From Desarmillaria ectypa (taxonomy: Eukaryota; Basidiomycota; Agaricomycetes; Agaricales; Physalacriaceae), in the NCBI GenBank assembly GCA_030407005.1, contig JAUDYN010000010.1:248001-312000 (forward strand): DNA of 64,000 bases. Direction: 5' to 3'. A program made the position numbers and the translations under genes. The notes under the pieces were generated by a model. That model made no database searches and was not told the DNA's origin. It saw nothing but the letters and a program-made list of their open reading frames with translations. This document shows, one piece after another, positions 3,314 to 59,453 of the stretch; within the stretch, counting starts at the first letter, position 1; every line of letters starts with the position of its first letter.

Positions 3314-5828
3314 CTACTCTTTTACCTCCTCGATCTTGGAGGTGCTCGGCACCACTGCGTCAGTGGGCCCCACGTATCTCACAACATTCTTCTCTTTTCT
3401 TGTAGGGCAATCCCTGCTCAGGTGACCCTTTTGGTCACACCTGAAGCAGCGCCCCTTGGCCTTTTGCTGGTCTAGGTCCATGGGCTTCCCCGCCCCCCCA
3501 TACATCATCCACTTACTGGTTCCAGCATCGCGACTGGTTCCTCCACTCCCAGCAGTCGACTTTGGAGCCGAGGAACTTGTCGCCCCAGCGGTGTTCTTGC
3601 TGCTGGGCTGCTGTTGTTGGGGACGCGGGCCCTGCTTCTGGCTGTCCTGAGGTGTACTAGTGGTCTGGTCAAAGACCCATTTCTGCTGTCGCTCTTCATA
3701 CATCTGGAGGATGCATTCCTTCCACTCCAGATATGAGCGTGGAATACTCATGCCCATATTTGATATGAAGGTCGTGTATGAACTAGGCACTCCTAGTCGC
3801 ACTGCCTTCACCATTGCTCCACGTTCCGCCTCATCGGATCTCTGGCCCGCTAGCTTGGCTTCTTCTTCCAGCTTCTGGAAGTAGTGGGAGGCGGGCTGTG
3901 CTCCCATGTGCAAGTCGAACATGCACTTTTCATGGATTTCCTCAATTGCGGGATCTCGGAATTGTCACGTGACTAGGTCGATGAAGTCGGCCCAGTCAGG
4001 GTATCGGAAGTGGGCGGCAGTGCTGTCGAAGGCATCGCCTACCCAGTATTCAGGTCTCTTGTAGACCCACCAGTCCTTGGCGGCACCCTTGAAGTGGGAC
4101 GTCGCGAATAGCACCAGGTGCGACGGTACCTGGAAATAGTGTCTGAACACTTCAAAATAGGCGATGCAATCACCTATGAAGTGCTCGATATCATCATGGT
4201 CCCCCTTGAATGGGGCGGGGACCTTGATGAGGGTTGGCTTGATGCCCAGATAGGGGGCATCAGCGGCGGCATTCCCGACTGGATTCAGGATTGGGTCAGG
4301 GGGTCCCTGACCAGGGGGCAGCCTTGGGATCAAAAATCGATCCAGCCTATACCCCAGGTAACCTCTTGGTGGCCCCGGCGGTCTTCCCCTCTCCAGCTCC
4401 TTCTCCTGCTCTTGGACTTGGAGGTAGTCCACCAATGTCTTGCGGGCAGAGTCCTCCTTGTCGAGCTCTTTGCGCATTTCTGCTATGCGCTGCTCTTTCT
4501 CCAGCAGCTCATTCTGCATCTGCTGCCGGGTTTCTTCTGCTGTGGCAGGGGTTCTTGTCGCCCCTGCAGTGGCGTTTCCTGCAGGGGCTCCTTCGGCTTC
4601 CATTTCTTCTCCCGCCCCTGCAAAGAGAAGACTACTGCCCTGATAGGGGTGGTATCCTTGGTGACATGCCCTGTGATGAGGGGGCGAGTCAGGAAGTGGT
4701 CGTGGGCTTACGACCAGGGTATCCGGTGGGTGGTCCGGATAGATTTCATATTGGGGATGGTGGTATTCCATCCCGCCGTAGTAACCTGTATTGTAGGTTA
4801 ACGTATTGTACTGGGGCTCTTGCCCCCACTCATTCCTCTCTAGCCACCTCCAGCCTCCATAAGTGCTGGAGGGTCCACTCCAGTTCCCGCTGCTCCTCAA
4901 TGGTCCAGGGTTGTAACCCTGGAAAACGATCCCCTGCAGAGGGGCGGAAAATTGACCAGTCGCGATTGGTGCAGATCCGGTGATTGACGATGTTGGCCCT
5001 GTAGTTACTGGGCCCATCGAATGGGACTCGGATGGGGTCACCCCTGTTAAGGGCGAGCCACTCATCCATGTCGACTCTGGGCTCTTCCCAGAGGTCGCGG
5101 GCTTCGACGTCCCTTTGTCGAACCTCCCATGCTGCGGTCCTGAATGGACCGAATATTCTCCAGTCGACCTCAGAGAGGTCTGGCCAGATGAAATCATCCC
5201 CATGTGGATTGAAAGGGTCATCGGCAGCACGGGGAGCAGCTGGGACTGGGGCGTCGTTTCCGACAATGTCATCGTCAGACTCATCATTGGAGATTTCGAT
5301 GACGGGGAGGGAGGAGAGCGAGATGGATTCTCCCCCCTCAGGCCACTGCTCGTGGCCCCAGGGGCCATAAGGGTGGTTTCAATCCATGCCGGGATCATCA
5401 GGGTGACAGGGTCCAGAATGGCCGGACCCTCTACTGTTGTCGCTGTCGGGCAATGGGGAATCGGATCTCTGCTGGGATATGCAGAGGGCGGGGGTTCTTG
5501 GACGAGGGGGGGGGCCGGGGTTCATCCAGTGCAAGCCGTACGTCCTGTGCATATTCTTGGGCCTCTGTAGGGATGCCTGTTGGTCGCTCCAGTGCAATGG
5601 TGGGTCATTCCATCTGGTAATGGAGGAGGACGGCTCTCGCGTTATAGGCGCGAGCAGATTGGGCAATCTGGGCCTGAAGTTCTGCGATCCCCGGAGACGG
5701 GGGTCGCGAGTTATCACTCTCCTCGGAGGAGGAGGTAGGGCCGATGATGAATCGGGCCTGGGGACAAACGAGTGAAATTGCTTCTCGTTCTCCCAGTCTT
5801 GCAGGGGGTAACCCCCTGGGAATGTCAT
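3314..5828 (-). pseudogene. Broken gag of copy 1
   Basis: Starts at the ATG of the MTFPGGYP motif (5828) as in the intact gag. The gag-frame protein reads to about 5500. A frameshift then carries the open frame into ORF A sequence up to 5379. The gag frame resumes at 5398 and continues to about 3965, where a TGA breaks it. The last segment (3922-3314) has the capsid-like region and a CCHC zinc knuckle (CFRCDQKGHLSRDC). The stop at 3314-3316 aligns with the gag stop of the intact copy. Gag would form the particle core and bind RNA. This copy is dead by at least one indel and one nonsense change. Confidence 0.9.
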
Positions 5829-6018
5829 TGGTGGTGGGTGGGACGGGGTGGGGTTCTGGGTCAGGTCGTCAGGGCTCCCTTCTGAGCAGAGCCCGGATTT
5901 CTTCCTCGTATATTAATACAGCGAGGACCGTAAAAAACGACAATAGTATGGCGCCGCCGATGGCAATGCCGAGGGATATGGTTCGGGGTTCTTGGTTGTT
6001 TCTATCTTCTCCAGGCAT
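4830..6018 (-). pseudogene. Broken ORF A of copy 1, overlapping gag
   Basis: The ATG at 6018 begins a counterpart of the intact ORF A (13733-14935), with a hydrophobic segment followed by YEEE near the N-terminus. The C-terminal part is open from 5069 to its stop at 4830. It keeps the conserved stretch IFGPFRTAAWEVRQRD and the motif MDEWLALNRGDPI, and ends LWRLEVAREE. It lies in the frame for which gag is +1, as in the other copies. Function unknown. The family-wide conservation of this C-terminal block argues that ORF A is a real protein. Confidence 0.78.
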
Positions 6019-6950: not shown

Positions 6951-7373
6951 TGTTAGGCACCGCCTTGGGCACGTGACTTGGGACGGTCAGGTGATCCTCT
7001 CTGGGCCGTTACGCGTTCGAACGATCACCCAAGTGAGAGAACTACGCTAATAGTCTTTAGTGTAGTGCGAGTAAGGAGTATATGATGTTAATTAAAACAA
7101 GAGATAAAGTACAATGGTCTAATATACTCTGTTTATATAGTATTCCTACGGCGTTATATTTAGATGAAACGCTACGGTCCATGCACAAACGGTGCTGAAG
7201 TAGGACGATCCGGGAGGATCATAGAGCCAATAGTAGTTGTCTGGGGTGACAGATGGTGAGAATGAGGGTGGTTGTCGGCGAATATCTGGATACGAGTCGG
7301 TTTCTGGACTAGATTAGATGGATGAGTCATGGATATGACTCGGATAAGATAAGATAACGGAAAAATCGTAACA
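6951..7373 (-). repeat. 3' LTR of the intact element
   Basis: 423 bp, TGTTA...TAACA. It contains a minus-strand TATATAAA at 7139-7132 and the 13-mer ATCTCTTGTTTTA at 7105-7093 that mirrors the primer site. It differs from the 5' LTR at 7280 only. Confidence 0.97.
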
Positions 7374-7389: not shown

Positions 7390-7406
7390 GCAGTCGTCCC
7401 GACTGC
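7390..7406 (-). other. Perfect small hairpin after the pol stop
   Basis: GCAGTCG, three loop bases (minus strand GGA), CGACTGC: a 7-bp perfect stem. Its first base is the G of the pol stop codon TAG (7408-7406). It lies between the stop and the polypurine tract. Role unknown. Confidence 0.6.
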
Positions 7407-10400
7407 TAAGGCTCTTCTAAAGGGGTATCGTATTGTGTTGCGATTTGATTGACCCAGTACTGATCAATCAGCTTTTTCCATATTTCCTCGTCTGGATTGA
7501 TGATCCATTTGACGCGTCCATCTGTTCTTTTGGCGAGATAGGCTACGTCGCCGTGTTCCGAATATTCGTGGTCCAGTATTTTGACCACTATTTTCCTGGT
7601 TGCGATTTTTGGAGCATATACGGCGCGGTTTACGCTGGCCTTATACTCTTGGATCGCTTCCGAGGCGTTCTTCATTTCATTCTCTCGGACCCATGAATTG
7701 TGTTCATGAGTCCATCCCTTCCATTTGACTAGGTAATCCGTGACTTCCCTAGATGGTTGTCCTCGCTTAGACCGTACCTTTCTGGTGCGCGAGTCTAAGA
7801 CTTCTTCGATTTCATATTCTTCTTGACCGTCTATGAGATCCGGGGAAGGAGGAGGCGGTTGTTCTTGGTTTTCAAATGAGGGTGCAACGTATGGAGTTAA
7901 CAGTTTCTCATTGAATCGGGGATGAATTTTCCAATGGGGGGGCAGTTTCAGTTTGTACGCTGCTGCTCCCGACTTTTCGATGATTTCGAACGGTCCCGTT
8001 CGTTTGTCGTCAAGCTTTTTCTTTGGTCGTGGAAGGTGAAGGTTGGCAGTATCCAGCCATACCTTTTCTCCGATTCGATATTCTCGTTGAGTCTGCTTCT
8101 TTTTGTCGTATTGCGCCTTCATTTGTGTCGCCGCTTTTTCTAATGCTTCGTGAACCTCCTTATGGACTTTGGCCATGGTTTCTGTAAAGTCAACGGCTGT
8201 AGGGTTTACAAAGCCCGTTTTCTGTATTGACTCGGGTATGAGTCGGGGATTTCGTCCGTATAGGACCATGAAAGGACTCTTGCCCGTGGCCGAGTGGATT
8301 CGGTTATTGTGGGCAAATTCGGCGAGTGGTAGCCATGCTACCCAGTCGGTCTGTCTATGGTTGACAAAGATACGAAGGTATTTTTCAACCTCCTGGTTGA
8401 CTCTCTCTGTTTGTCCGTCTGTCTGCGGGTGATAGGCTGTAGACGCATTTTGAGTGATATTCAGCATTCGATATAGTTCTTTCATGAATGCTGAGACGAA
8501 TTGAGGTCCTCTGTCAGAGATGACCACTTGTGGCATTCCATGCTTCGCATATACTTGGTTGCGAAGTATTAACGCCCATCCTTCTGCTGATAGTTCCTCA
8601 TTGCATGGAATCAAAAGGATATTTTTGGAGAAACGGTCTACGATGACTAGTAGAGCGTCAAATCCATCTGACTCTGGGAGTCCGGTGATCATATCGGCTG
8701 AGATATGTGTCCATGGCGTATCCGGAATTGCATTGGGGTGAAGAGGAGCGGCTTTGGCCTGCGTGTCACTCTTCGTCCTTTGACAAGTCTCACATCCTTT
8801 GATGTAAGATTCTACGTCCTTCTTCATCTTTGGCCACCAATACTCTCGGAGTATGAGTTCCTTGGTTTTGGCGATTCCAGGATGTCCAGCGGTGATATGA
8901 TCATGGAATTGTGCAATGATCTCACCGCGCAACATTGAGTCATTGGGAATATAGACTCGTCCATCGTACCACAGGATTTCGTTTTCCTGTGTGATTCCTC
9001 TTTCGTGGTTGAGGGATTTTTCAATTCCCTGGTCCCACTGTTCCTTCTGTTTTGTCGCGTCTCTTATACGCGTGATTCTTTCTTCCGTGGTTGGTATTAT
9101 CAGGGCGCGGAAGTGTTCTGGGGATAGAACGACAATGTCTTTATTGTCTTCTTTTCCTTGATTATGATCATCTCGTCTACTGAGAAGATCAGCCTTCTGG
9201 TTAGCGGTTCCGGCTTTATGCTGAAGGATAAAGTGGTATTCCGCTAGTTCAGTGACCCATCGTGCTTGTCGACGATTCAACTTCTGGGGTTTTCGGAAGT
9301 ATTGGAGATTCTGGTGGTCAGTCCAGATCTCGATGGTTTCGTTGGCGCCCATGAGATAATGACGCCATTCTTCTAATGCTAGCATGATGGCTAGCAATTC
9401 CTTGTCATAGATCTCATAGTTGCGCTCGGTAGCGGTGAGCGCCTTGGACATAAAGGCGACGGGTCTCCATTTGCCTTCTTTTTCTTGGCTGAGTACAGCG
9501 CCAATGGCTCCGTCACTTGCGTCTGCTTCTACTCGGAACTTTCCATCGTCCGAAGGAATTGTTAGAATTACGTTTGTTGTCATCAGCTTCTTGATCTGAT
9601 CAAACGCCTGTTCTTGTTCTGATCCCCAGGTCCAGTCTACTTTTCCGGTCAACTGGGTAAGGGGACGGACTATTTTGGAATAGTCTTTGATGAACTTTCG
9701 ATAGAAGTTCGTAAATCCTAAGAAGGATTGTAATTCCTTCTTTTTCGTTGGGGTTGGCCATTCCGCTATTCCTGCTATCTTGACTGGATCCATGCGAATG
9801 GCGTTTTCGCTTATGATGACCCCAAGGTATTCCGTTTCGAGTACCTCAAACTCGCATTTCTCGGCTTTGAGGAATAGCTTATTTTCTCGAAGTCGCTGGA
9901 GTACTTGTCGTACTATGTTCCGGTGTTCTGTCAAGGATTTTGTGAAGATAAGTATATCGTCTAGGTAAATGGTGACCTTTCCTCCAGCGATCAAATCCTT
10001 GAATATGTCGTTCATCATCCACTGGAATGTAGCTGGTGAATTTGTGAGCCCAAAGAACATTACCGTGGGTTCAAAGAGCCCTCGGTTTGTTCTGAACGCG
10101 GCTTTTTCTTCGTCTCCGTCTCGAATACGGACATTGTTGTAACCCCATCGTACATCCAGCTTAGAGAAATATTTGGCTCCTCGTAATTTGTTGATAAGCT
10201 CGGAGATGAGCGGGAGGGGATAACGATTTTTGATCGTCATTTCGTTCAGCTTTCGATAGTCCTGAACTGGTCGTAACGAGCCATCCTTTTTCTTGACGAA
10301 GAAGAAGGGAGAGGCGAACGGGGATTTCGAAGGTCGAATTCGTCCTGAGCTTAAGTTCTCATCTAAGAACTTATCTAGTTGTTCCTGCTCATTGTGATTG

Positions 10401-12175
10401 AGCGGGTACACTTTGCAATCTAGAGTAGATTTTGCGTTGGGAATTAGCTCGATGGCGTGATCCCAGTTTCTTCGTTCTGGTAATTCATCAAAGCTTTCCT
10501 TAGAGAATAAATCTCTAAAGCTTTGATACTGAGGAGGCACGAGCTCCTCAAACGTCTGCTTTGGTTTCTCAGCATTAGCTGCAGCTGCTAATTCATTTGC
10601 GTGATGGACGGCTCGGAGGAGAATTTCTTCTTGCATATTGACGGCAAGAATACTTTCCCCTTCTTCAAGCTCTTCGTCCCATCGGTCTTCTTCATCTGCA
10701 TCTGGTAGAGTAAAGTAGTTCTGGATACAATGACATCGTCCAAATGTCAAGGTTCCTGCCTTCCAGTTGACGAAAGGGTTGTGGCGTTTAAGCCAATCGT
10801 GTCCCAAATATACAGTTTTGGAACCTAAGTCGGTGACTGCAAGGTCAATGCGTTCACTATGTCCTCCAATTGTCATTCGCAATTCTACAAATTCGGTAAC
10901 GTCTCCTGCTTTATTGCGCGTTCCATCGGCATTATAGACTGGTATAGGAGACGCGGCTTTCCTGGTGTCCAACTGGTGTTGTTGGACGTATGTTCGGTTG
11001 ATAGAGCTGCCCGTGCAGCCGCTATCCACCAACGCTCGGGTTGTCAGTACTTTTTTCCCGGTGCATGGGGAAAGTTGGATATCTACCAGGAAATCCCGAC
11101 TGGAACTCTTGGTGCTTCGAATATAACGAATGGGTTCGTGTAATTCATAGAGCTGTTCCCGGGCAATGCTCTCTCCCGTTCGTAAGCTTTGGATAAGCTC
11201 GTCGTCGATTTCTCCGAGTCGTTTAGGGTGTACCCAAATGGAGAGAACCGCTTTGGCGTTTGCCAGATCCTTGGAGTTGCGTATGGCGCGCATCGTCCAG
11301 TCAATTCCAAATGGTTTGAACCATTGGAATTCGTCTTGCTTCCCCGTGCATTCGAAAGCAATTGATACCCCCTTGTTAAGATTGGTATCGGTTTCGACGC
11401 TTCCCTGTGCCTTCGGAAGATCGAGTTTCTGTTTTTCCGGTGTTCTGCATATCGGGGTACTGGCTTTGGATTGGTTGTCTTGCCACATCCTAAACGCCGT
11501 ATCATCTTCTTCGTCGGGTACTTCAACGACGGTAGTTCTGCTGAAATGCCCCCTTTTTACCGCCTGGGCGCTAGCGGGATCCTGTCCCTTTTCCTCGGCC
11601 GGCACTACTCGCGACGGAGTTTGAAATTCCTTGGTCATTGACTCCCAGCTAGTGCCGAAGGCGACCTTCGCACGGTTGTCAACCCTGCAACTTGCCGGCC
11701 CGGTTTGGTACTCAGCTTCGTCAAGTTTTCCACTCCCCGGACCGGTTCGTCCGGGTAAAGCCTGGCCTTGGTTAGAGGCACTGTCCTGGTCCTCCGCCGA
11801 CCCTGGCGGAACTGGTGAGCTTGCCCCGCTGCTCGAAGCGGGTACTGGGATGGTCGGACTTCTGGAAGTCCCGGAGGAGTCCCGCCTACTGATCCCTGCT
11901 CGTCGCTGTGCGCTCAGCGGCGTATCCGGTGAGCACTGCTCATTGGACTTTGTTGCGGCGCCAACACCACTTGGCAAGTCCCGCTCCAGTTCGTCGGAGG
12001 CTCGGGATTTGTCACTACAGATACTAGTGTCAGCGTCTTCTAGTAGTATGACGTACCTGTTTGTTTTTGTTGATTCTTTCTTTGTCTTCGGCTTCGGTGA
12101 AGTCATAGATATATTTTTTGTAGGTAATTGTCTGTTTTCATAGTAATTAGTCCGACCCGCGGAAACCGAGGACAC
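7406..12175 (-). CDS. pol: Pol polyprotein (protease, RT, RNase H, integrase, chromodomain)
   Basis: About 1589 residues counted from a GTG at 12175. That GTG is only the edge of the open frame, which continues upstream through the gag stop in the -1 frame, so I expect a Gag-Pol fusion by -1 frameshifting. Segments by approximate residue: Ser/Pro-rich linker 1-360; aspartic protease with VDSGCTGSS near 380; RT with YLDDILIF near 737; RNase H with EADASDGAIG near 882; integrase zinc region (H-H, CETC) 1090-1135; catalytic D, D, E near 1163, 1219 and 1257; GPY/F-like KRTGPFEII; chromodomain with YLVKWKGW 1451-1510; then about 75 extra residues. All catalytic motifs are present. The product would process the polyprotein, copy the RNA and integrate the cDNA. 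Confidence 0.97.
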   Translation of the reverse strand: MSSVSAGRTNYYENRQLPTKNISMTSPKPKTKKESTKTNRYVILLEDADTSICSDKSRASDELERDLPSGVGAATKSNEQCSPDTPLSAQRRAGISRRDSSGTSRSPTIPVPASSSGASSPVPPGSAEDQDSASNQGQALPGRTGPGSGKLDEAEYQTGPASCRVDNRAKVAFGTSWESMTKEFQTPSRVVPAEEKGQDPASAQAVKRGHFSRTTVVEVPDEEDDTAFRMWQDNQSKASTPICRTPEKQKLDLPKAQGSVETDTNLNKGVSIAFECTGKQDEFQWFKPFGIDWTMRAIRNSKDLANAKAVLSIWVHPKRLGEIDDELIQSLRTGESIAREQLYELHEPIRYIRSTKSSSRDFLVDIQLSPCTGKKVLTTRALVDSGCTGSSINRTYVQQHQLDTRKAASPIPVYNADGTRNKAGDVTEFVELRMTIGGHSERIDLAVTDLGSKTVYLGHDWLKRHNPFVNWKAGTLTFGRCHCIQNYFTLPDADEEDRWDEELEEGESILAVNMQEEILLRAVHHANELAAAANAEKPKQTFEELVPPQYQSFRDLFSKESFDELPERRNWDHAIELIPNAKSTLDCKVYPLNHNEQEQLDKFLDENLSSGRIRPSKSPFASPFFFVKKKDGSLRPVQDYRKLNEMTIKNRYPLPLISELINKLRGAKYFSKLDVRWGYNNVRIRDGDEEKAAFRTNRGLFEPTVMFFGLTNSPATFQWMMNDIFKDLIAGGKVTIYLDDILIFTKSLTEHRNIVRQVLQRLRENKLFLKAEKCEFEVLETEYLGVIISENAIRMDPVKIAGIAEWPTPTKKKELQSFLGFTNFYRKFIKDYSKIVRPLTQLTGKVDWTWGSEQEQAFDQIKKLMTTNVILTIPSDDGKFRVEADASDGAIGAVLSQEKEGKWRPVAFMSKALTATERNYEIYDKELLAIMLALEEWRHYLMGANETIEIWTDHQNLQYFRKPQKLNRRQARWVTELAEYHFILQHKAGTANQKADLLSRRDDHNQGKEDNKDIVVLSPEHFRALIIPTTEERITRIRDATKQKEQWDQGIEKSLNHERGITQENEILWYDGRVYIPNDSMLRGEIIAQFHDHITAGHPGIAKTKELILREYWWPKMKKDVESYIKGCETCQRTKSDTQAKAAPLHPNAIPDTPWTHISADMITGLPESDGFDALLVIVDRFSKNILLIPCNEELSAEGWALILRNQVYAKHGMPQVVISDRGPQFVSAFMKELYRMLNITQNASTAYHPQTDGQTERVNQEVEKYLRIFVNHRQTDWVAWLPLAEFAHNNRIHSATGKSPFMVLYGRNPRLIPESIQKTGFVNPTAVDFTETMAKVHKEVHEALEKAATQMKAQYDKKKQTQREYRIGEKVWLDTANLHLPRPKKKLDDKRTGPFEIIEKSGAAAYKLKLPPHWKIHPRFNEKLLTPYVAPSFENQEQPPPPSPDLIDGQEEYEIEEVLDSRTRKVRSKRGQPSREVTDYLVKWKGWTHEHNSWVRENEMKNASEAIQEYKASVNRAVYAPKIATRKIVVKILDHEYSEHGDVAYLAKRTDGRVKWIINPDEEIWKKLIDQYWVNQIATQYDTPLEEP

Positions 12176-12187
12176 ACCTTGAGACTT

Positions 12188-12220
12188 GGGCGTGCAAGGG
12201 GAATCGAACCCTTGACGCCC
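12188..12220 (-). promoter_or_regulatory. Gag-pol junction hairpin resembling a tRNA top half
   Basis: It starts on the G of the gag TAG. Outer stem GGGCGT (12220-12215) pairs with ACGCCC (12193-12188). Inner stem CAAGGG (12214-12209) pairs with CCCTTG (12200-12195). The loop is TTCGATTC, with one bulged C at 12194. The same 33-nt fold occurs in all four copies that reach this point, with compensatory changes. It lies where a frameshift or readthrough stimulator would act. The gag codons just before are GTA AAA GAG TAG, so an A-AAA slip into the -1 frame is possible. The 12-bp stack and T-loop-like loop look like an acceptor/T-arm minihelix. Confidence 0.8.
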
Positions 12221-14745
12221 TACTCTTTTACCTCCTCGATCTTGGAGGTGCTTGGCACCACTGCGTCAGTGGGCCCCACGTATCTCACCACGTTCTTCTC
12301 TTTTCTTGTAGGGCAATCCCTGCTCAGGTGACCCTTTTGGTCGCACCTGAAGCAGCGCCCCTCGGCTCGTTGCCGGTCTACGTCCATGGGCTTCCCCGCC
12401 CCCCCGTACGTCGTCCACTTACCGGTTCCAGCATCGCGACCGGTTCCCCCACTCCCAACACTCGGTTTTGGAGCCGAGGAGCTTGTCGCCCCAGCGGTGT
12501 TCTTGCCGCTGGGTTGCTGTTGTTGGGGACGCGGGCCCTGCTTCTGGCCGTCCCGAGGCATACTCGTGGTCTGGTCAAAGACCCACTTCCGCTGTCTCTC
12601 TTCATACATTCGGAGAATGCGTTCCTTCCACTCTGGGTATGAGCGCGGAATGCTCACTCCCATGTTCGAGATAAAGGTGGTATAGGAGCTGGGGACTCCT
12701 AGTCGTACCGCCTTTACCATCGCGCCTCTTTCCGCCTCGTCGGATCTCCGGCCCGCTAGCTTTGCTTCCTCTTCCAGCTTCTGGAAGTAGTGGGAGGCGG
12801 GCTGTGCTCCCATGCGCAGATCGAACATGCGCTTTTCGTGGATTTCCTCGATCGCCGGATCTCGGAATTGTCTTGTGACTAAGTCGACGAAGTCGGCCCA
12901 GTTGGGGTATCGGAAGTGGGCAGCGGTGCCATCAAAGGCATCGCCTACCCAGTATTCGGGTCTCTTGTAGACCCACCAGTCCTTGGCGGCTCCCTCAAAG
13001 TGGGATGTCGCGAATAATACCAGGTGCGACGGTACCTGGAAATAGTGTCGGAACACTTCGAAATAGGCGATACAATCGCCTATGAAGCGTTCGATGTCGT
13101 CATGGTCCCCTTTGAACGGGGCGGGGACCTTGACAAGGGTTGGCTTGATGCCCAAGTAAGGGGCATCAGCGGCGGCATTCCCGACCGGATTCGGGATTGG
13201 GTCAGGTGGTCCCTGACCAGGGGGTGGTCTTGGGATCGAAAATCGATCCGGCCTGTACCCCGGGTACCCCCTTGGTGGTCCCGGCGGTCTTCCCCTCTCC
13301 GGCTCCTTCTCTTGCTCTTGGGCTCGGAGGTAGTCCGCTAGTGTCTTGCGGGCGGCGTTTTCTTTGTCGAGCTCGCTACGCATCTCCGCTATGCGCCGCT
13401 CTTTTTCCTGTAACTCGGTTCGCATGTGCTGCCGAGTTTCTTCTGCCGTGGCAGGATTCCTTGACGCCCCTGCAGTGGCGTTTCCTGCCGGCGTTCCTTC
13501 CGCTTCCATTTCTTCTCCTGCTCCTGCAAAGAGAAGACTGCCACCCTGATAAGGGTGGTATCCTTGATGACGCACCTGATGATGAGGAGGTGAGTCGGGA
13601 AGTGGTCGTGGGTTTACGACCGGGGTATCCGGTAGGTAACCCGGATAGATTTCGTATTGAGGGTGGTGGTATTCCATCCCTCTGTAGTAACCTGTATCGT
13701 AGGTAAACGTATTATATTGAGGCTCTTCTTCCTCAATCTTCTCGTGCCATCTCCAGCCTCCAGAGATGCTGGAGGGTCCTGTCCAGCTCTCGTTGCTCGC
13801 GTGGGGTCCTGGGTAATAACCCTGGAAAACGATCCCCGGCGGCGGGACCGAAGATTGACCGGTCGCGGTTGGAGCGAATCCGGTGATTGACGATGAGGGC
13901 CCTGGCGTTGCTAGGGCCTTCCATCGGTACTTGGATGGGGTCGCCCCTGTTAAGGGCGAGCCACTCATCCATCTCCATTCTGGGTTCTCCCCAGAGATCT
14001 CGGGTTTCGACGTCCCTTCGTCGAATTTCCCATGCTGCGGTCCGGTATGGACCGAATATTCTCCGATCGTAGTCGGAGAGCTCTGGCCACGTGTAATCGA
14101 GCCCGTCGGAGTTGAAGGGATCGTCGGGGGCGAGGGGAGCGGTCTGGGTGTGGATTCCGACGAGACCGTCGTCGGATTCGTCATCGGAGATTTCGATGAC
14201 GGGGAGGGAGGAGATGGAGATTTCCTCTCTGCTTGGCCACCGCTCACGGCTCCAGGGTCCGTAAGGGTGGTTCCGATCCATTCCGGGATCGTCGGGGTGT
14301 CGGGGTCCGTTGAAGTTGGACCCGTTGCTGCTGTTGCTGTCGTCGCTGTTGGACGACGAGGAATCGGACCTTCGCTGGGATTGGCGAAAGGTGGGGTTTC
14401 TTGGACGAGGGGGGGGACCGGGGTATGGGGGCGGGGGTTCATCCCCGTCAGACCATACATCCCTCTCGTGTTCCTCGGTCTCCTCAGGACCGATTGTTGG
14501 TTGCTCCATTGCTGCGGTGGATCGTTCCAACCGGCTCCGGAGGAGGAGAACCCTTGCGTTGTAGGCGAGGGCATTTCGGGCAATTCGTTCCCGAAGTTCT
14601 GCGATCCCCGGAGACGGGGGCCGCGAATTAGTACTCTCCTCGGAGGAGGAGGAGGGCCCGATGATGAATCGGATCCGGGGACGAACGAGTGGAATCTCCT
14701 CTCGTTCTCCCAGTCTTGCGGGGGATATCCCCCTGGGAAGGTCAT
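12220..14745 (-). CDS. gag: Gag polyprotein
   Basis: 841 residues from the ATG at 14745, the second AUG of the predicted mRNA. The N-terminal third is rich in Pro, Ser, Gly and Arg and is read in the +1 frame over ORF A (overlap 13733-14745). The middle has a Glu/Arg-rich, probably coiled-coil stretch (about residues 415-475). A capsid-type region with HFEGAAKDWW and a downstream GRCFRCDQKGHL zinc knuckle of C-x2-C-x4-H-x4-C form (about 790-810) follow. It ends in EEVKE and TAG at the junction hairpin. It should build the virus-like particle and package RNA. The capsid and knuckle are typical of Ty3/gypsy Gag. The long N-terminal part has no relative I recognise. Confidence 0.93.
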   Translation of the reverse strand: MTFPGGYPPQDWENERRFHSFVPGSDSSSGPPPPPRRVLIRGPRLRGSQNFGNELPEMPSPTTQGFSSSGAGWNDPPQQWSNQQSVLRRPRNTRGMYGLTGMNPRPHTPVPPLVQETPPFANPSEGPIPRRPTATTATAATGPTSTDPDTPTIPEWIGTTLTDPGAVSGGQAERKSPSPPSPSSKSPMTNPTTVSSESTPRPLPSPPTIPSTPTGSITRGQSSPTTIGEYSVHTGPQHGKFDEGTSKPEISGENPEWRWMSGSPLTGATPSKYRWKALATPGPSSSITGFAPTATGQSSVPPPGIVFQGYYPGPHASNESWTGPSSISGGWRWHEKIEEEEPQYNTFTYDTGYYRGMEYHHPQYEIYPGYLPDTPVVNPRPLPDSPPHHQVRHQGYHPYQGGSLLFAGAGEEMEAEGTPAGNATAGASRNPATAEETRQHMRTELQEKERRIAEMRSELDKENAARKTLADYLRAQEQEKEPERGRPPGPPRGYPGYRPDRFSIPRPPPGQGPPDPIPNPVGNAAADAPYLGIKPTLVKVPAPFKGDHDDIERFIGDCIAYFEVFRHYFQVPSHLVLFATSHFEGAAKDWWVYKRPEYWVGDAFDGTAAHFRYPNWADFVDLVTRQFRDPAIEEIHEKRMFDLRMGAQPASHYFQKLEEEAKLAGRRSDEAERGAMVKAVRLGVPSSYTTFISNMGVSIPRSYPEWKERILRMYEERQRKWVFDQTTSMPRDGQKQGPRPQQQQPSGKNTAGATSSSAPKPSVGSGGTGRDAGTGKWTTYGGAGKPMDVDRQRAEGRCFRCDQKGHLSRDCPTRKEKNVVRYVGPTDAVVPSTSKIEEVKE

Positions 14746-14935
14746 GTGTGGCGGGCGAAACGGGACGGGGTTCTGGTTCTGGTCTCCGGGGTTGTCTTCT
14801 TAGCAAGGCCCGGAGTTCTTCCTCGTAAATAAGTACGGCGAGGACCGTAAAAAAGGATAATAAAATGGCGCCGCCAATGGCAACGCCGAGGGAGACGGTT
14901 CGGGGTTCTTGAGAGTTTCTGTCTTCTCCGGACAT
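13733..14935 (-). CDS. ORF A: membrane-segment protein overprinted on gag
   Basis: 400 residues from the first AUG of the predicted transcript (14935; bases CTC precede it, a weak context). Residues about 16-38 form a hydrophobic segment ending VLIYEEE, then basic residues, so a membrane anchor with a cytosolic tail is likely. The middle is Pro/Ser/acidic. The C-terminal 130 residues contain WPELS, IFGPYR and MDEWLALNRGDPI. These recur in the family-B copy (4830-5069), copy 3 (18549-18869) and, in part, family C (59259-59447). Gag is +1 relative to it in every copy. No domain is recognised. It could help assembly at a membrane, or be fused to Gag by frameshifting. It is not an env placed after pol. 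Confidence 0.85.
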   Translation of the reverse strand: MSGEDRNSQEPRTVSLGVAIGGAILLSFFTVLAVLIYEEELRALLRRQPRRPEPEPRPVSPATHDLPRGISPARLGEREEIPLVRPRIRFIIGPSSSSEESTNSRPPSPGIAELRERIARNALAYNARVLLLRSRLERSTAAMEQPTIGPEETEEHERDVWSDGDEPPPPYPGPPPRPRNPTFRQSQRRSDSSSSNSDDSNSSNGSNFNGPRHPDDPGMDRNHPYGPWSRERWPSREEISISSLPVIEISDDESDDGLVGIHTQTAPLAPDDPFNSDGLDYTWPELSDYDRRIFGPYRTAAWEIRRRDVETRDLWGEPRMEMDEWLALNRGDPIQVPMEGPSNARALIVNHRIRSNRDRSIFGPAAGDRFPGLLPRTPREQRELDRTLQHLWRLEMARED

Positions 14936-14983
14936 GAGTTCTTCTATACGGCTAGCGTAATAGAAGAAGAGTTGGTTGGAAAT

Positions 14984-14996
14984 ATCTCTTGTTTTA
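14984..14996 (-). promoter_or_regulatory. Self-primer binding site of the intact element
   Basis: The 13 bases touching the 5' LTR (minus strand TAAAACAAGAGAT) are the exact reverse complement of ATCTCTTGTTTTA in the LTR (15151-15139). The match runs to 14 bases. No tRNA-type TGG primer site is present. Confidence 0.9.
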
Positions 14997-15419
14997 TGTT
15001 AGGCACCGCCTTGGGCACGTGACTTGGGACGGTCAGGTGATCCTCTCTGGGCCGTTACGCGTTCGAACGATCACCCAAGTGAGAGAACTACGCTAATAGT
15101 CTTTAGTGTAGTGCGAGTAAGGAGTATATGATGTTAATTAAAACAAGAGATAAAGTACAATGGTCTAATATACTCTGTTTATATAGTATTCCTACGGCGT
15201 TATATTTAGATGAAACGCTACGGTCCATGCACAAACGGTGCTGAAGTAGGACGATCCGGGAGGATCATAGAGCCAATAGTAGTTGTCTGGGGTGACAGAT
15301 GGTGAGAATGAGGGTGGTTGTCGGCAAATATCTGGATACGAGTCGGTTTCTGGACTAGATTAGATGGATGAGTCATGGATATGACTCGGATAAGATAAGA
15401 TAACGGAAAAATCGTAACA
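14997..15419 (-). repeat. 5' LTR of the intact element
   Basis: 423 bp, TGTTA...TAACA, identical to the 3' LTR except A at 15326. Confidence 0.97.
15151..15185 (-). promoter_or_regulatory. LTR core promoter and inferred transcript start
   Basis: TATATAAA on the minus strand at 15185-15178. The base 34 nt downstream (15151) begins the sequence complementary to the primer site. The same spacing (33-35 nt) is seen in the family B, C and D LTRs, so I place the mRNA 5' end here. Confidence 0.75.
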
Positions 15420-15555: not shown

Positions 15556-15556
15556 C
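15524..15556 (-). promoter_or_regulatory. Gag-pol junction hairpin, copy 3
   Basis: Starts on the G of TAG. The outer stem is GGTCAA/TTGACC (fully paired but different in sequence from family A). The inner stem is CAAGGG/CTCTTG with one G-T pair, and the loop is TTTGATTC. Confidence 0.78.
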
Positions 15557-16796
15557 TACTCTTTTACCTCCTTGATCTTGGCCATAGGTGGCACCACTTC
15601 ATTAGTGGGCCCTACTGATCTAACATTCTTGAAGTCTTTTCTTCTAAGATAATCCTTGGCCATGTGGCCCTTCTTATTGCACTGGAAGCATCTTCCTTCT
15701 GCCTTTTGTTGGTCTACCTCCATCAGTTGTCCTGATCCCCCATATGTTATCCATTGGCCCATTCCCAAATCCTGACTGAGACTAGTATTGGCTATCAGCT
15801 TTGGAGCTGAATGACTTGTTGCCCCAGCAGCAGCTTTGCCACTGGGTTGATGTTGTTGGGAATCGGGATGGGAGTCCTTTTTCTGCCCATCCCAGAGAAT
15901 TCCCGCCATCTGGTCAAATACCCATTTATGCTGTCTCTCCTCATACATGTGTGATATTCTCTCCTTCCACTCTGGATATGTGTGTGGAATATTAATGCCC
16001 ATATTGGAGATAAATGTCATATAGGAGGTTGGTACTCCTAGATGTATGGCCTTTATCATGGTGCCATACTCATGCTTATCAGTTTGTTGGCCTGCCAATT
16101 TAGCCTCTTCCTCCAGCATCTGAAAGTAATGGGAGGTGGGCTGCATTCCCATCTGGAGGTCAAACATCCTCTTCTCATAGACTTCCTTGATGGCAGGGTC
16201 TCTAAATTGTCATGAGACCATATCAATGAAGTCTTCTCAAGAAGGATATCTGAAGTGGGCAAGGGTGCTGTCATAGGCATCCCCAACCCAAAATTTGGGT
16301 CTCTTGTAGACCCACCAGTCCTTGGTGGTCCCCTCAAAGTGGAAGGTCATGAATAGTACCAGATGCAATGGCAACTGGAAGAAATGTCAGAACACTTTGA
16401 CATAAGCAATGCAATCACCTATAAAGCACTTGATGTCATCATGGTCCCCCTTGAATGGCTTGGAGGGCTGGACAAGGATTTGCTTGATCCCCATGTATGG
16501 GGCATTGTCAGAGGCATTCCTGACAGGATTGGGTAAAGGGTTGGGGGGACCCTTTCTGGGGAGCAGTCTTGGGATTGAATAGCAATCTGATCAGGGAGGC
16601 TCTGTTGGCCTCCCATGCTTGGGTTCCTTCCCTTTGTCATTTTTGCAGAGATAGTCTGCCATCTCCTTTTGGACAGCTTCTTTCTTTGCAAGTTCTTCAT
16701 GCATCTCCTTGATGCATTGTTCCTTCTCAGCTAACATGGTGTTTGTCTGTTGCTGGAGTTCCTCCATTGTGGCAGAGGATAGCCCTGCAGGGGTGG
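15556..16796 (-). pseudogene. C-terminal two-thirds of copy-3 gag
   Basis: An open segment (16167-15556) carries the region that aligns with the intact gag C-terminus, with MFDLQMGMQP, then a zinc knuckle CFQCNKKGHMAKDY in which the last cysteine is replaced by tyrosine. It ends EVKE and TAG. Upstream pieces (16337-16056, 16700-16419, 16815-16591) cover the capsid and coiled-coil parts in broken frames. The N-terminal part continues at 18159 beyond an E LTR. Arg-to-stop changes (for example near 16210) fit CpG decay. Not expressible as Gag. Confidence 0.85.
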
Positions 16797-18158: not shown

Positions 18159-19095
18159 GCGGTGCTTCCTTCAGGATCTTCTCCTGCTCCTGTGAATAAA
18201 AGACTACTACCCTGATAAGAGTGGTATCCTTGTTGATGTGCCCAACTGTATGATAGTGAGTTGAACATGGGTTGTGGCTGTTGAGCTGGGGTTTCAGGGG
18301 GGTAGTTGGGAATGTTCATATATTGGGGCTGGGCATATCCCAGCACACTGTAGTAGCCTGTCTCATAAGTAAAATTATCAAAATTAGGTGTTGCACCCAT
18401 CCTCTGCCTCTCTGTTGACCTCCAATTGCCATAGCTGTCAAAGAGAGTGATTTAGCTCCTATCACTCCTTTGTTATCCAAGGGTGTAACCCAGGTACCAG
18501 GTCTCCTGTGGCCAGGGGGAAAAGGGTCCAATGTCTGTTAGCATGTATTCAGGCCCAAATGGTGGTGCCTGGGTTGGGACCCCATATAAGGTCGCCTTGG
18601 TTGAGTGCCAACCACTCATCTATATCAGGTCTGGCCTCAGGCCAGCCCATGTGTGCCTCGATGTCAGCTTGTCGAAGGTTCCAGACAGTGGCCCTGAAGG
18701 GGCCAAATAACTCCCAATCAACATTGGAGAGTTCAGGCCATATATAGTCAGCCTCATCAGGGTTGAAGAGGCTGTCAGGAGGGAAGGGAGTGGTTGGGGT
18801 CATGGGGTTGAGTTCCCCATTGCAGTTGTGAGAGAGCTTGATGATGGGGAGCAATGAGGAGGACTTCATCCCTCCTCTCAGCCAGTGTTCTCTGTTATGG
18901 CCCCAGGGGCCAGAGGGGTGGTTTCAATCCAGTCCTGGATCATTGGGGTGTCGGGTCCTGAAGTGGGGCTGGAACAGGGTTGGGGAATGGGGATGGGGAT
19001 GTTGGAGAGGGGAATACATGGGTGGGGGGTCCTCAAATGTAGCCTGTACATTCCTTGCATATTCTTGGGTAGGAGTGGGAGATCATTCCACCTGG
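18159..19095 (-). pseudogene. N-terminal part of copy-3 gag and ORF A
   Basis: Both overlapping frames are recognisable. The gag frame has ITRWNDLPLL, GYHSYQGSSLLF and TGAGED. The ORF A frame (18869-18549) has DYIWPELSNVDWELFGPF and IDEWLALNQGD. Gag is +1 relative to ORF A. Stops and indels break both. The segment is cut at 19096 by a minus-strand E LTR, and the primer-site end is not seen. Confidence 0.8.
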
Positions 19096-20525
19096 TGATG
19101 TGCTTGGTAATGGTGAGTGACAAAAGAATTAGGGAATGGCAATGAACACCAATCACACTAAACCTCTTACTACTCTACACTTAATCACCAATATTGAATT
19201 TGGGCAGTTTCGAGTACAATGGAAGCACTTTGCAGACTTTAATAATCAAGTACAATTGTCTTGAAGACATTTTATTCATTACTAGTGAGTTTATACAAAG
19301 TACTAATCACACTAATGGGGTTGGTGAGACACAATTGGGTAAAGAGTGACTTGGTTTGAGCTACTGCGCTTGTTCTGACTGAAACTGCTTCAAACTAGTG
19401 GCTCTCTTGACCCTATACTGCTTCCTACAAGTGATAAACATTTGACTAGTCGCACTCTTGGCTAACTAGTGGTGCTCTTGGCCTAAGAATAATACTATAA
19501 CTCCAAGAACTTTGCTTGAACTAACTTCAAAACACTCTGGACCTTTGCAGGACACAACAGTGACTCTAAGGGACTTCAATTCAATGTAATACTATAGGTG
19601 ACTTAGCGACTATTAATCACTTCATTGAGGTTAAGCACAAAAGCCTTTAGTTGGCGGATGTCATGTTCGATATCACTGGCATTATGTTCAGGAGATATGA
19701 TAACACCACCCAAAACTTTGCCTTCAAAAACACAAGTTACTACTAGTGAGGGCTCAACTGTGGGGATGACTTGCCTGCTTTGCATGAGCACCCATCCCAC
19801 TACTTATATACTACTGAGGCAGAACTATAAATATCATCTGGGTATAGAGTATATTGGTAAGGATTTCTTGGCTAGTCATGAATAATGGTGAATAATCACA
19901 CAATAGTTGGTCTAGTCTGTTTTCTTTTCAAATGACTGGTCTAGAGACTCCACAGTTGGTCTTTCCACACTCTTGGCCCAACTACATGCTCTAGTAATGC
20001 AGTTATATGGATATCTGGATATTGGTGCCTGTAACAGCTATCCAATCATGATCGAGGGTGTAGTCTGGCTCCACTAGTATTGATCATAAGAGATCTATAT
20101 CACAATAGTTGGATCTGGGCTCAAGGTTAATCCATTTCTAATTCATTTCTAAGTTCTGTTTCAGGATTGCCATGTGACTAGTATCCTGACTTAGGTGTTT
20201 ATGCCCAGGCCTGGTTTGCTAGTGACAGAACTTCATGAGATCTGTGTATTCTACTCCTGGTTTTGGTGTGCTAGTAGCATTGTTCATTTGCTAGTGGCTG
20301 TATTTAGTCCTGCTAGCATTCAAGTTACTAGTCTGGCTAGCTAGTAGATTTAAGCAACTAATGATGTTGCATCTAAGTCCTGGCTCTACTAGTTGCTTAC
20401 TGCTTTTAACTATCAGCCCAAAGCCTCAGCTATAGTCCTCTATGTATCACTAGTATAGGATAGATGTTCAATAGTATTGCTACAAAATCACAAAATCTAG
20501 GTGTGAACACATAGATGGCATATCA
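19096..20525 (-). repeat. E-family LTR (1430 bp), minus orientation
   Basis: Near-perfect reverse complement of 27966-29395 and the same length. It contains the same small ORF (19785-19603). No matching 5-bp duplication at its ends (CCTGG against GCATG), so it is probably the end of a larger rearranged element or a recombinant. Confidence 0.85.
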
Positions 20526-20895
20526 GCATGACAGAGATGTGTTTGAGATTTCTCATCTGAAAAATACATCCTGGAGTTCATCAGTGTTGCTAGAGAGATC
20601 AGAATATGATACCTTTCTGCAAAGATTGGGAAGTTGAAGGTTCATTTGAGATAGCATCACCTCAAAGTTCAAATTCAAAATTCAAGAGTCAAAAATTCAA
20701 GCTCAAGAGTGATCATTTGACCCAAAATGACTGCTAAATTGATGGCCTATATAAAATGGTTGACTGGAGAGTCTAATCTTAAGGAAAGTGGTGTACTGCA
20801 TGGACAGACTGGCAGGAATCTGTTGAAGACAAGTTAAAGAAGGTAAGTCAAATCTCTCCAGCTGGTTGCAGAGGGTGAAATACAATTAAAAAACT
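20526..20895. other. AT-rich stretch, no gene seen
   Basis: Contains short TTCAAG/TTCAAA repeats (about 20660-20710). No coding signal or known repeat recognised. Confidence 0.4.
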
Positions 20896-27916: not shown

Positions 27917-27965
27917 ACAGTAGTGTGGATGGCAGTCTATTAGCCCCTGGTTCCTGGTCTGGTGG

Positions 27966-29395
27966 TGATATGCCATCTACATGTTCACACCTAGATTTTG
28001 TGATTTTGTAGCAATACTATTGAACATCTATCCTATACTAGTGATACATAGAGGACTATAGCTGAGGCTTTGGGCTGATAGTTAAAAGCAGTAAGCAACT
28101 AGTAGAGCCAGGACTTAGATGCAACATCATTAGTTGCTTAAATCTACTAGCTAGCCAGACTAGTAACTTGAATGCTAGCAGGACTAAATACAGCCACTAG
28201 CAAATGAACAATGCTACTAGCACACCAAAACCAGGAGTAGAATACACAGATCTCATGAAGTTCTGTCACTAGCAAACCAGGCCTGGGCATAAACACCTAA
28301 GTCAGGATACTAGTCACATGGCAATCCTGAAACAGAACTTAGAAATGAATTAGAAATGGATTAACCTTGAGCCCAGATCCAACTATTGTGATATAGATCT
28401 CTTATGATCAATACTAGTGGAGCCAGACTACACCCTCGATCATGATTGGATAGCTGTTACAGGCACCAATATCCAGATATCCATATAACTGCATTACTAG
28501 AGCATGTAGTTGGGCCAAGAGTGTGGAAAGACCAACTGTGGAGTCTCTAGACCAGTCATTTGAAAAGAAAACAGACTAGACCAACTATTGTGTGATTATT
28601 CACCATTATTCATGACTAGCCAAGAAATCCTTACCAATATACTCTATACCCAGATGATATTTATAGTTCTGCCTCAGTAGTATATAAGTAGTGGGATGGG
28701 TGCTCATGCAAAGCAGGCAAGTCATCCCCACAGTTGAGCCCTCACTAGTAGTAACTTGTGTTTTTGAAGGCAAAGTTTTGGGTGGTGTTATCATATCTCC
28801 TGAACATAATGCCAGTGATATCGAACATGACATCCGCCAACTAAAGGCTTTTGTGCTTAACCTCAATGAAGTGATTAATAGTCGCTAAGTCACCTATAGT
28901 ATTACATTGAATTGAAGTCCCTTAGAGTCACTGTTGTGTCCTGCAAAGGTCCAGAGTGTTTTGAAGTTAGTTCAAGCAAAGTTCTCGGAGTTATAGTATT
29001 ATTCTTAGGCCAAGAGCACCACTAGTTAGCCAAGAGCGCGACTAGTCAAATGTTTATCACTTGTAGGAAGCAGTATAGGGTCAAGAGAGCCACTAGTTTG
29101 AAGCAGTTTCAGTCAGAACAAGCGCAGTAGCTCAAACCAAGTCAATCTTTACCCAATTGTGTCTTACCAACCCCATTAGTGTGAGTAGTACTTTGTATAA
29201 CTCACTAGTAATGAATAAAACATCTTTAAAACCACCTTACTTGATTATTGAAGTCTGCAGAGTGCTTCCATCATACTTAAAACCACCCAAATTCAATATT
29301 GGTGATTAAAGTGTAGAGTAGTAAGAGGTTTAGTGTGATTGGTGTTCATTGCCATTCCCTAATTCTTTTGTCACTCACCATTACCAAGCACATCA
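27966..29395 (+). repeat. E-family LTR (1430 bp), plus orientation
   Basis: TGATATGCC...AAGCACATCA. TATATAAG at about 28681. With 19096-20525 it forms long near-identical inverted arms around a 7.4-kb AT-rich block. The right flank starts the gene-bearing region. Confidence 0.85.
28706..28888 (+). CDS. Small ORF just after the E LTR TATA box (60 aa)
   Basis: ATG about 25 nt downstream of TATATAAG, within the E LTR. It encodes 60 residues ending LNEVINSR, with a hydrophobic-acidic composition and no recognised domain. The same ORF is intact in the minus-strand E copy (19785-19603) and mostly deleted in the E copy at 16797-18158. It lies close to the predicted transcript start, so it could be a uORF, the first exon of an element protein, or chance. 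I cannot assign a function. Confidence 0.35.
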   Translation: MQSRQVIPTVEPSLVVTCVFEGKVLGGVIISPEHNASDIEHDIRQLKAFVLNLNEVINSR

Positions 29396-58483: not shown

Positions 58484-59453
58484 ATGCCAGCTGTAAAAGA
58501 TGCACCAACCTATGTCCAAAAACAATGAGAACCAATGAACAATCACTCTTAGTGCCACAATCCTTATAATCTTCACAGCTCTTCTAGTACTAGCATACAA
58601 AGAAGAAGCACAAGTCCTTCTCTGCCAAGAAAGGTGACCCTGCCACCCGCAACTTCCACCCTGCCCTCCTCACCATCCTGAACATGTTGTTCCCAGGAAG
58701 TTATCCCCCATCAGACTGGGAACAAGAGAGGCAGCTCCATTATTCCACCCCCAGGTCAGCTTCAGGGCCCCCTCAACAGCTTCATCCTCCTCTGAGGACA
58801 CCAATCAGAATCCCACAAGAACAATTCCTGCAACCTACCAGCTGGAATGACTTGCCACCACTGAGGCTGAGGAATATGTGTGGAACATTTGGGCTCAGAA
58901 TGATGACCCTCCACCCCCATACTCCCTACCCCCTTGTCCCCACTCCCCAACCCCCACTCAGCCCTACCTTAGGGCCTTACACTCCAACCATTGCAATATG
59001 GATCGAAACCACCCTTATGGACTCTGGGCTCAAGGAAGAAACCCCTGGCCAAGAGGGAACCTGGACTCCAAGGGAAGCTCAAACTCCAAGGGCAAGTTTA
59101 TCCCACTCATCCCACTCCTCCCCCTCACTCCTGACAGTCCCTTCAATCCTGATGGGATAAGCTAAAACTGGCCTGCTCTTGCAGCCATCAACCGAGAAAT
59201 CCTTGGTCCCATCACATCCATTGCCTGGGATCTCAGGCAAGCCAATGTTGAGGCCAGAATGGCCTGGCCCAAGCACTGTTCCAACATGGATGAGTGGCTC
59301 ACCCTTGACCAGGGTGAACCAATATGGGGTCCAAACCCCAATGCCACAATTTGGGCCTGGATATATGCCAACAGGAACCAGGAACTTTATGGCTCCACCA
59401 TCAGCAATATAGTATCAGGGCTACATCCAAGGATGGCAGAGAAATGACAGGAG
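58484..59453 (+). pseudogene. ORF A of the family-C element
   Basis: Begins at ATG 58484. After early stops it has a hydrophobic segment and LAYKEEAQVLL, equivalent to the family-A membrane segment and YEEE. Open pieces 58878-59165 (NDDPPPPY, MDRNHPYGLW, FNPDG) and 59259-59447 (MDEWLTLDQGEPIWGP) match ORF A. Gag is +1 relative to it. Broken by single stops near 58526, 58559 and 59165. Confidence 0.75.

Follow-up and report, generated by a model that had tools for sequence, protein, structure and literature searches.

A membrane-protein reading frame overlapping gag for 1 kb in a Ty3/gypsy chromovirus of Desarmillaria ectypa is under purifying selection

Introduction

In murine leukemia virus (MLV), glyco-Gag is an N-terminally anchored Gag in frame with gag, and among retroviral late domains the motif PPxY recruits Nedd4. 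Env-less Ty3/gypsy elements of the MDG1 type (412, Stalker2 and others) encode sORF2, a membrane protein, upstream of gag, and in insects MDG1 sORF2 localizes with capsids at cell protrusions (PMC11952523). The sORF2-like proteins are 63-107 amino acids (aa) long and the reoviral FAST proteins about 80-200 aa, and an N-myristoylation motif, MGxxxS/T, is present in four of six MDG1 sORF2s and so is not strictly required (PMC11952523). Other traits of the sORF2/FAST-like class are an ectodomain of about 30 aa, amphipathic motifs flanking the transmembrane segment and the ability to fuse membranes. In fungi, a survey of chromoviruses reported that the majority of elements have one fused or two separate open reading frames (ORFs), and one of its figure legends names an additional ORF of unknown function (PMC2864245). 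Here we analyze a 64,000-nucleotide (nt) stretch of the agaric Desarmillaria ectypa (Physalacriaceae; assembly GCA_030407005.1, contig JAUDYN010000010.1, positions 248,001 to 312,000; hereafter the window), which is part of contig C2 of a 40.6-Mb genome. It holds a Ty3/gypsy chromovirus in which a 400-codon ORF encoding a single-pass membrane protein, here called ORF A, overlaps gag in a different frame.

Like MLV glyco-Gag, ORF A places an N-terminal membrane segment upstream of gag as a second product of the same RNA, but it lies in another frame and ends independently. As in retroviral late domains, its [LP]PxY motif is kept while the variable residue changes; unlike in those domains, the motif, known here from sequence alone, sits in a separate membrane protein and not in Gag. 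The closest analogue that we found is MDG1 sORF2. ORF A likewise lies upstream of gag in an Env-less Ty3/gypsy element and has a short N-terminus, one transmembrane (TM) segment, a tyrosine after it and basic residues, but it differs from sORF2 in its 400 aa, its 1013-nt overlap with gag, its [LP]PxY motif and its long conserved C-terminal block (PMC11952523). The comparison with sORF2 and FAST proteins is an analogy of position and features, with no sequence relation shown. The element also resembles the surveyed fungal chromoviruses, which include chromodomain Ty3/gypsy elements in Agaricomycetes, but the accessible survey text describes no counterpart of its overlapping membrane ORF (PMC2864245). 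In its architecture, we regard ORF A as a variant form of the accessory membrane ORF that other Ty3/gypsy elements carry.

Results

ORF A (13733-14935, on the minus strand like all features of the element) starts at the first AUG (AUG1, 14933-14935), and the 841-aa gag (12220-14745) starts at a second AUG (AUG2, 14743-14745) 190 nt further on in the +1 frame. Both frames are open for 1013 nt (13733-14745), and the first 337 aa of Gag overlie ORF A; these coordinates agree exactly with those in a preliminary description of the locus. When the genome was searched in six frames for ORF A and 104 of 905 candidates were scored, at least 106 match rows were obtained, at least 15 of them full length and without stops. 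Five copies lie in the window: the focal one and four decayed ones, assigned to family B (4833-6018, minus strand), family C (residues 150-399; 18408-19079, minus strand) and family D (58512-59504, plus strand) or covering residues 1-230 (62609-63262, plus strand). Seventy copies, namely the window copy and loci L002-L070, were aligned, and AUG1 and AUG2 are each intact in 69 of the 70. In the 16 least decayed copies, a group that includes one copy (L005) with a single stop at codon 398, the 1-kb overlap contains on average 0.06 stops per copy in the ORF A frame and 0.06 in the gag frame compared to 9.5 in the third frame, indicating that the two open frames are not a product of chance.

Of the 35 sister pairs, 6 lack ORF A stops, and in these the substitution rates at the three codon positions were compared. 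At the three positions of the ORF A phase, the rates were 0.048, 0.021 and 0.132 before the gag start, 0.041, 0.023 and 0.061 in the overlap, and 0.100, 0.037 and 0.032 beyond the end of ORF A, where gag alone is coding. To estimate the ratio of nonsynonymous to synonymous substitution rates (dN/dS), every change was scored by its effect in both frames, CpG transitions were excluded, the transition weight was fixed at 3 rather than estimated, and 95% intervals were obtained by codon resampling. In the nine of the 35 pairs with at most one ORF A stop each and a distance below 0.12 (clean pairs), dN/dS for ORF A was 0.177 (0.08-0.32) outside the overlap and 0.311 (0.20-0.46) inside it, while that for gag was 0.47 (0.30-0.72) inside the overlap and 0.187 (0.14-0.24) in the gag-only region; the corresponding values for all 35 pairs were 0.264, 0.303, 0.60 and 0.225. 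With CpG changes kept, the same four values were 0.276, 0.29, 0.457 and 0.23 in clean pairs, and 0.429, 0.348, 0.453 and 0.338 in all 35.

Among controls run with the same code, the ORF A phase past its stop gave 1.13 (0.83-1.64), and the third frame, scored within the overlap, gave 1.99 (1.35-3.17) given gag and 1.53 given ORF A. The NS/SS estimator, which uses gag-silent changes only, pointed in the same direction (0.298, 0.15-1.07, in clean pairs; 0.195, 0.14-0.28, in all 35), but with few sites and wide intervals it was not relied on. Purifying selection therefore acts on ORF A as a protein, at about the strength seen for gag. A ratio near 1 in the ORF A frame, which the preliminary description had named as grounds for abandoning such a protein, is excluded by values of 0.18 outside and 0.31 inside the overlap. 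Both frames of the overlap are under purifying selection, the hallmark of dual coding.

The two frames do not share this constraint evenly along the overlap. Over its first 135 codons, the constraint on the two is similar, with dN/dS of 0.35 for gag and 0.43 for ORF A in clean pairs (0.55 and 0.44 in all 35). Over the last 199 codons, the constraint on ORF A is clearly the stronger, at 0.24 in clean pairs (0.239; 0.13-0.41), and gag is only weakly held, at 0.89 (0.49-1.71) in clean pairs, 0.65 (0.44-0.99) in the 19 pairs with a distance below 0.12 and 0.68 (0.53-0.86) in all 35. Summed tblastn scores were also compared over 14 diverged loci, comprising 12 fetched loci and window families B and D. 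In the first part of the overlap, they amounted to 696 bits for ORF A and 846 for gag, with gag higher in 10 of the 14; in the second part, they amounted to 2168 bits for ORF A and 1203 for gag, with ORF A higher in every locus except L100 (13 of 14). Both measures bear out the earlier impression that the C-terminus of ORF A is more constrained than the gag frame beneath it. In one sequence, codon usage in the C-terminal half correlated with that of pol at a rho of 0.50 for ORF A and 0.38 for gag, with no difference in the N-terminal half (0.21 versus 0.22), which hints that ORF A may be the older frame in the C-terminal half.

The arrangement extends to deeply diverged families. A search with the C-terminal block of family D (93 aa), in which 150 of 552 candidates were scored, returned at least 150 matches, with identities down to 37% among the matches listed, and two of these overlap rows of the full ORF A search. 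The spacing of the two starts was determined in 10 diverged loci whose matches could be extended to both starts with no intervening frame change: L092, L093, L095, L096, L098, L100, L101, the copy at 62609, and window families B and D. It ranges from 172 to 199 nt and is +1 in every one, with I in place of M at the gag start of L098; left out were L097, whose two ORF A pieces are separated by a change of frame, and L090, L091, L094, L099 and window family C, in which at least one start could not be placed. Given that the +1 spacing is kept in these 10 loci, the architecture is older than the split of their families. Dual coding with a fixed +1 offset, as first proposed from the window alone, therefore holds both in the codon-phase tests with their controls and across deeply diverged families.

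Identity between the long terminal repeats (LTRs) was examined in 19 aligned copies besides the window copy; in three of these (L008, L011 and L012), no 3' LTR match was found at the expected place. ORF A is open in nine young copies with an LTR identity of at least 98.4%: the window copy, L002 (100%), L006, L014, L003, L009, L010, L013 and L007. The preliminary description had held that stops in young copies would speak against ORF A. Such stops do occur, one or two per copy, in 4 of 13 young copies (L005, L015, L016 and L017; LTR identity at least 98.3%), but those of L005 and L016 fall at codon 398 of 400 and remove only the last three residues, and the remaining 9 of 13 are open. A single ORF A stop is present in L018 and in L020 (97.6-97.7%), and none in L023 (96.0%) or L004 (95.3%). 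Stops in the reference frame of gag are found in young copies too (L002, L005, L006, L007, L013, L014 and L017). Over all 70 copies there are 228 ORF A stops, of which 109 are at codons that read CGA in the window copy and 153 at CG-holding codons, a pattern of decay after insertion such as deamination of methylated cytosine would yield. Most ORF A stops in old copies are TGA. L011 and L012, on contigs C18 (26 kb) and C23, differ by 0.9% and are possibly an allelic or duplicated stretch.

The base at position -3 of AUG1 is T or C in all 69 copies with a base there, so that the weak context remarked on in the preliminary description is general. Among the 11 young copies listed, the 215-nt leader is AUG-free in 8, and no AUG lies between the two starts in 10. 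These contexts fit leaky scanning past AUG1, which is the simplest route to gag and probably the one used; reinitiation cannot reach gag because ORF A ends 1 kb after the gag start. The weak first AUG would yield less ORF A than Gag, as suits an accessory protein. A transcript in which the N-terminus of ORF A is spliced onto gag was weighed as well but not adopted, since the C-terminal half of ORF A is its most constrained part.

The predicted protein begins with a short, acidic N-terminus followed by a TM helix (residues 16-36; 14828-14890), where mean hydropathy reaches 2.54, against a maximum of 0.35 elsewhere in the window copy, and by an arginine cluster. An N-terminal hydrophobic segment is present in all 70 copies (best window at least 1.78), in agreement with the membrane segment originally proposed. 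The charge difference across the helix is small, and an N-out topology is weakly favored. In the predicted structure, confidence is low except for the TM helix (residues 16-46 in the model), where the predicted local distance difference test score (pLDDT) reaches 96, a helix at residues 109-143 and the C-terminal helix.

Downstream of the helix, an [LP]PxY motif (PPPY, residues 168-171; 14423-14434) is conserved in 68 of the 70 aligned copies, where the variable residue is P, T, A or L, and is found in 12 of 16 diverged loci, with PPMY, LPAY and PPSY among its forms. Variation at x was considered as proof of selection on ORF A, an argument weakened by the fact that first-base changes at x are silent in gag. 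Mainly the first base of the tyrosine codon is thus informative, and it is T in 68 of 68 copies, although C would be silent in gag. The window gag itself has no [LP]PxY. A further motif, LPVIEISDDESDD (residues 244-256; 14168-14206), which we take to resemble small ubiquitin-like modifier (SUMO)-interaction motifs, also recurs in 12 of 16 diverged loci. The conserved C-terminal block comprises residues 271-400 (13736-14125) and includes WPEL, IFGP, MDEWLALN and LQHLWRLE. In the 16 most diverged aligned copies, the best-kept parts are blocks within the C-terminal 130 residues, chiefly MDEWLALNR and the last 20 residues, and the TM segment with YEEE.

Searches of 5.8 billion proteins gave no matches to full-length ORF A (E up to 0.01) or to its C-terminal region (E up to 10), Pfam contained no credible domain in it, and no PDB sequence matched it. 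A four-sequence ORF A profile matched four proteins, three of them from the genome of the window. The fourth (P0004; 281 aa, on a 71.6-kb contig) covers about one quarter of the query. Compared with the genome of the window, P0004 reaches at best 53% identity over about 46 residues among the 133 matches listed; it seems to come from another organism and is a lead only. As judged by these searches, ORF A would be new as a protein family. A retroviral or errantiviral Env was rejected as an identity for ORF A, whose sole hydrophobic segment is at residues 16-36, as opposed to a large ectodomain between a signal peptide and a C-terminal TM segment. No description of an overlapping membrane ORF in a fungal element was found in the open-access literature searched. 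The earlier statement that no gypsy protein like ORF A is known thus stands for the sequence searches made here, but in function MDG1 sORF2 is a possible analogue (PMC11952523).

The full element (15419-6951) is a young Ty3/gypsy chromovirus. Its 5' LTR (14997-15419; TGTTAC...TAACA) and 3' LTR (6951-7373), each of 423 bp, differ at 1 of 423 sites, and CTGAA outside both LTR ends constitutes a 5-bp target duplication. The pol frame (7406-12175) is -1 relative to gag and open from 12265, and domain matches within it identify protease, reverse transcriptase, RNase H and integrase, in the order expected of chromoviruses, together with an SH3 domain and, at its end, the chromodomain. Gag has a Retrotrans_gag (PF03732) match at aa 578-678 that, at 21.2 bits, is below the Pfam cut-off of 24.1, and a CCHC knuckle at aa 797-812 above its cut-off. 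In self-priming of the Tf1 type, the primer-binding site pairs with a complementary 5' end of the RNA of the element itself. Here, a segment resembling a primer-binding site directly follows the 5' LTR (14983-14995), and a 13-nt segment that starts 31 nt after a TATAAA box (15140-15152) is its exact complement. This suggests Tf1-like self-priming from a presumed transcript start near 15155.

A hairpin resembling the T-arm and acceptor stem of a tRNA lies right at the gag stop codon (12188-12221, minus strand), with the sequence GGGCGT CAAGGG TTCGATTC CCCTTG CACGCCC. The same T-arm-like hairpin is found near 3314-3369 and 15556-15611 (both minus strand) and 60956-61010 (plus strand). Across 40 places, drawn from 36 of the 40 loci L031-L070 and from the four positions in the window, its T-arm core is almost invariant and its outer stem varies, mostly by CpG-type changes. 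ARAGORN found no tRNA in the window, and the hairpin at the gag stop may serve as a guide for gag-pol recoding. Elsewhere in the window, two inverted arms of 1238 nt (19291-20528 and 27963-29200), 99% complementary, lie 7.4 kb apart.

Discussion

Based on the data presented above, we are close to certain that a lineage of fungal chromoviruses encodes ORF A as a real accessory protein. The best overall explanation, to which we assign a probability of about 0.6, is that it is an accessory membrane protein, accompanied by Gag through leaky scanning, and perhaps an adaptor between particles, membranes and the ubiquitin and ESCRT (endosomal sorting complex required for transport) machinery. According to this model, ribosomes would initiate ORF A at AUG1, the weak first start codon of the genomic RNA, and those scanning past it would start gag at AUG2, 190 nt on. 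ORF A would be anchored in the membrane through its one N-terminal helix, with a tail exposing the [LP]PxY motif and the helical C-terminal block, and could bring Gag particles to the membrane and recruit a WW-domain ubiquitin ligase (Nedd4/Rsp5-type) and thereby ESCRT. It would thus perform in trans the task that in retroviruses falls to late domains within Gag itself. Coupling to membranes and WW ligases is suggested by the TM helix and the [LP]PxY motif together with the lack of that motif in the window gag. The adaptor role itself, which draws on motifs and position, is the likeliest of the roles considered but is put forward tentatively, at less than even odds.

Several observations weigh against this model or parts of it. 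The context of AUG2 is weak as well, with C at -3 in 47 of 69 copies, and when all 70 copies are counted, decayed ones included, the leader is AUG-free in 14 and no AUG separates the starts in 31. The third-frame control in the gag-only region is slightly below 1 (0.82; 0.59-1.15). L002, with identical LTRs and an open ORF A, has a stop in gag, and an intact ORF A alone is therefore no mark of a working copy. ORF A stops are also held in common within the oldest group, at codon 7 in seven copies and at codon 57 in eight, and both members of the sister pair L019/L020 have one at codon 382; such shared stops may have been inherited. With regard to the protein, the net charge before the helix and in the 20 residues after it is -1/0 in the window copy; the values for two other families are -1/-1 and -3/-2. 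Four of 16 diverged loci, family B included, lack the [LP]PxY motif at the corresponding site, and the pattern matches other places by chance in several diverged loci. The invariance of the first base of its tyrosine codon is equalled at 65 of the 334 gag third positions within the overlap. The C-terminal block has no confident fold, with a mean pLDDT of 38 when modeled alone and 56.7 in the full protein.

That ORF A is no protein, and that its frame is open owing to composition, RNA structure or gag alone, can hardly be upheld. The overlap is GC-rich and gag constrains the same bases, but this explanation is already contradicted by the 9.5 stops per copy in the third frame, by the phase-specific dN/dS, whose internal controls are near or above 1, and by constraint in the 190 nt ahead of the gag start, where gag does not yet code. 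It is also improbable that the main product is an ORF A-Gag fusion generated by +1 frameshifting, a membrane-anchored Gag like MLV glyco-Gag. Although glyco-Gag is a precedent for an N-terminally anchored Gag and the 1-kb overlap has the frames in the right relation, AUG2 is kept in 69 of 70 copies, and the C-terminal half of ORF A, which a frameshift could skip, is its most constrained part.

The remaining alternatives accept ORF A as a separate membrane protein and differ in what it would do. By analogy with FAST and sORF2 proteins, it might join or fuse membranes so that particles pass between cells, such as hyphae, for which the Env-less insect MDG1 elements provide a precedent (PMC11952523). 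Its position upstream of gag, its single N-terminal TM segment, shared with both groups, and the tyrosine right after that segment followed by arginines would fit such a role. We nonetheless consider it unlikely and do not count ORF A as a FAST protein: it starts MSGED and lacks the N-terminal MG found in four of six MDG1 sORF2s, has 15 residues before the TM segment versus an ectodomain of about 30, is 400 aa long versus 63-107 aa or about 80-200 aa, and is best conserved in its C-terminal block, far from the membrane. Another membrane-associated role, as a viroporin, an anchor for a replication complex at the endoplasmic reticulum or nuclear envelope, or a counter-defense acting on SUMO or ubiquitin, is a possibility to be taken seriously, if still on the unlikely side. 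The TM segment and the SUMO-interaction-like motif in 12 of 16 diverged loci are consistent with it, and no homology fixes the function of ORF A; nothing specific stands against it, but it is the least testable of the readings.

These results imply that mobile elements can carry long double-coding genes, with both proteins here preserved by evolution. To our knowledge, 1 kb of same-strand dual coding is long for any retroelement, and its retention across deeply diverged families offers a natural system for two proteins that share sequence, in which one frame takes over the constraint along the overlap. Such genes will escape annotation pipelines in which a single ORF is retained for each stretch. 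A membrane protein made ahead of Gag in an Env-less fungal element also raises the question of whether fungal retrotransposons meet membranes or cross hyphae. It is conceivable, though we think it rather doubtful, that in Env-less fungal chromoviruses the gag-double-coded ORF A lets particles leave or cross membranes via host ubiquitin and ESCRT; if true, this would amount to a retrovirus-like system of spread in mushrooms.

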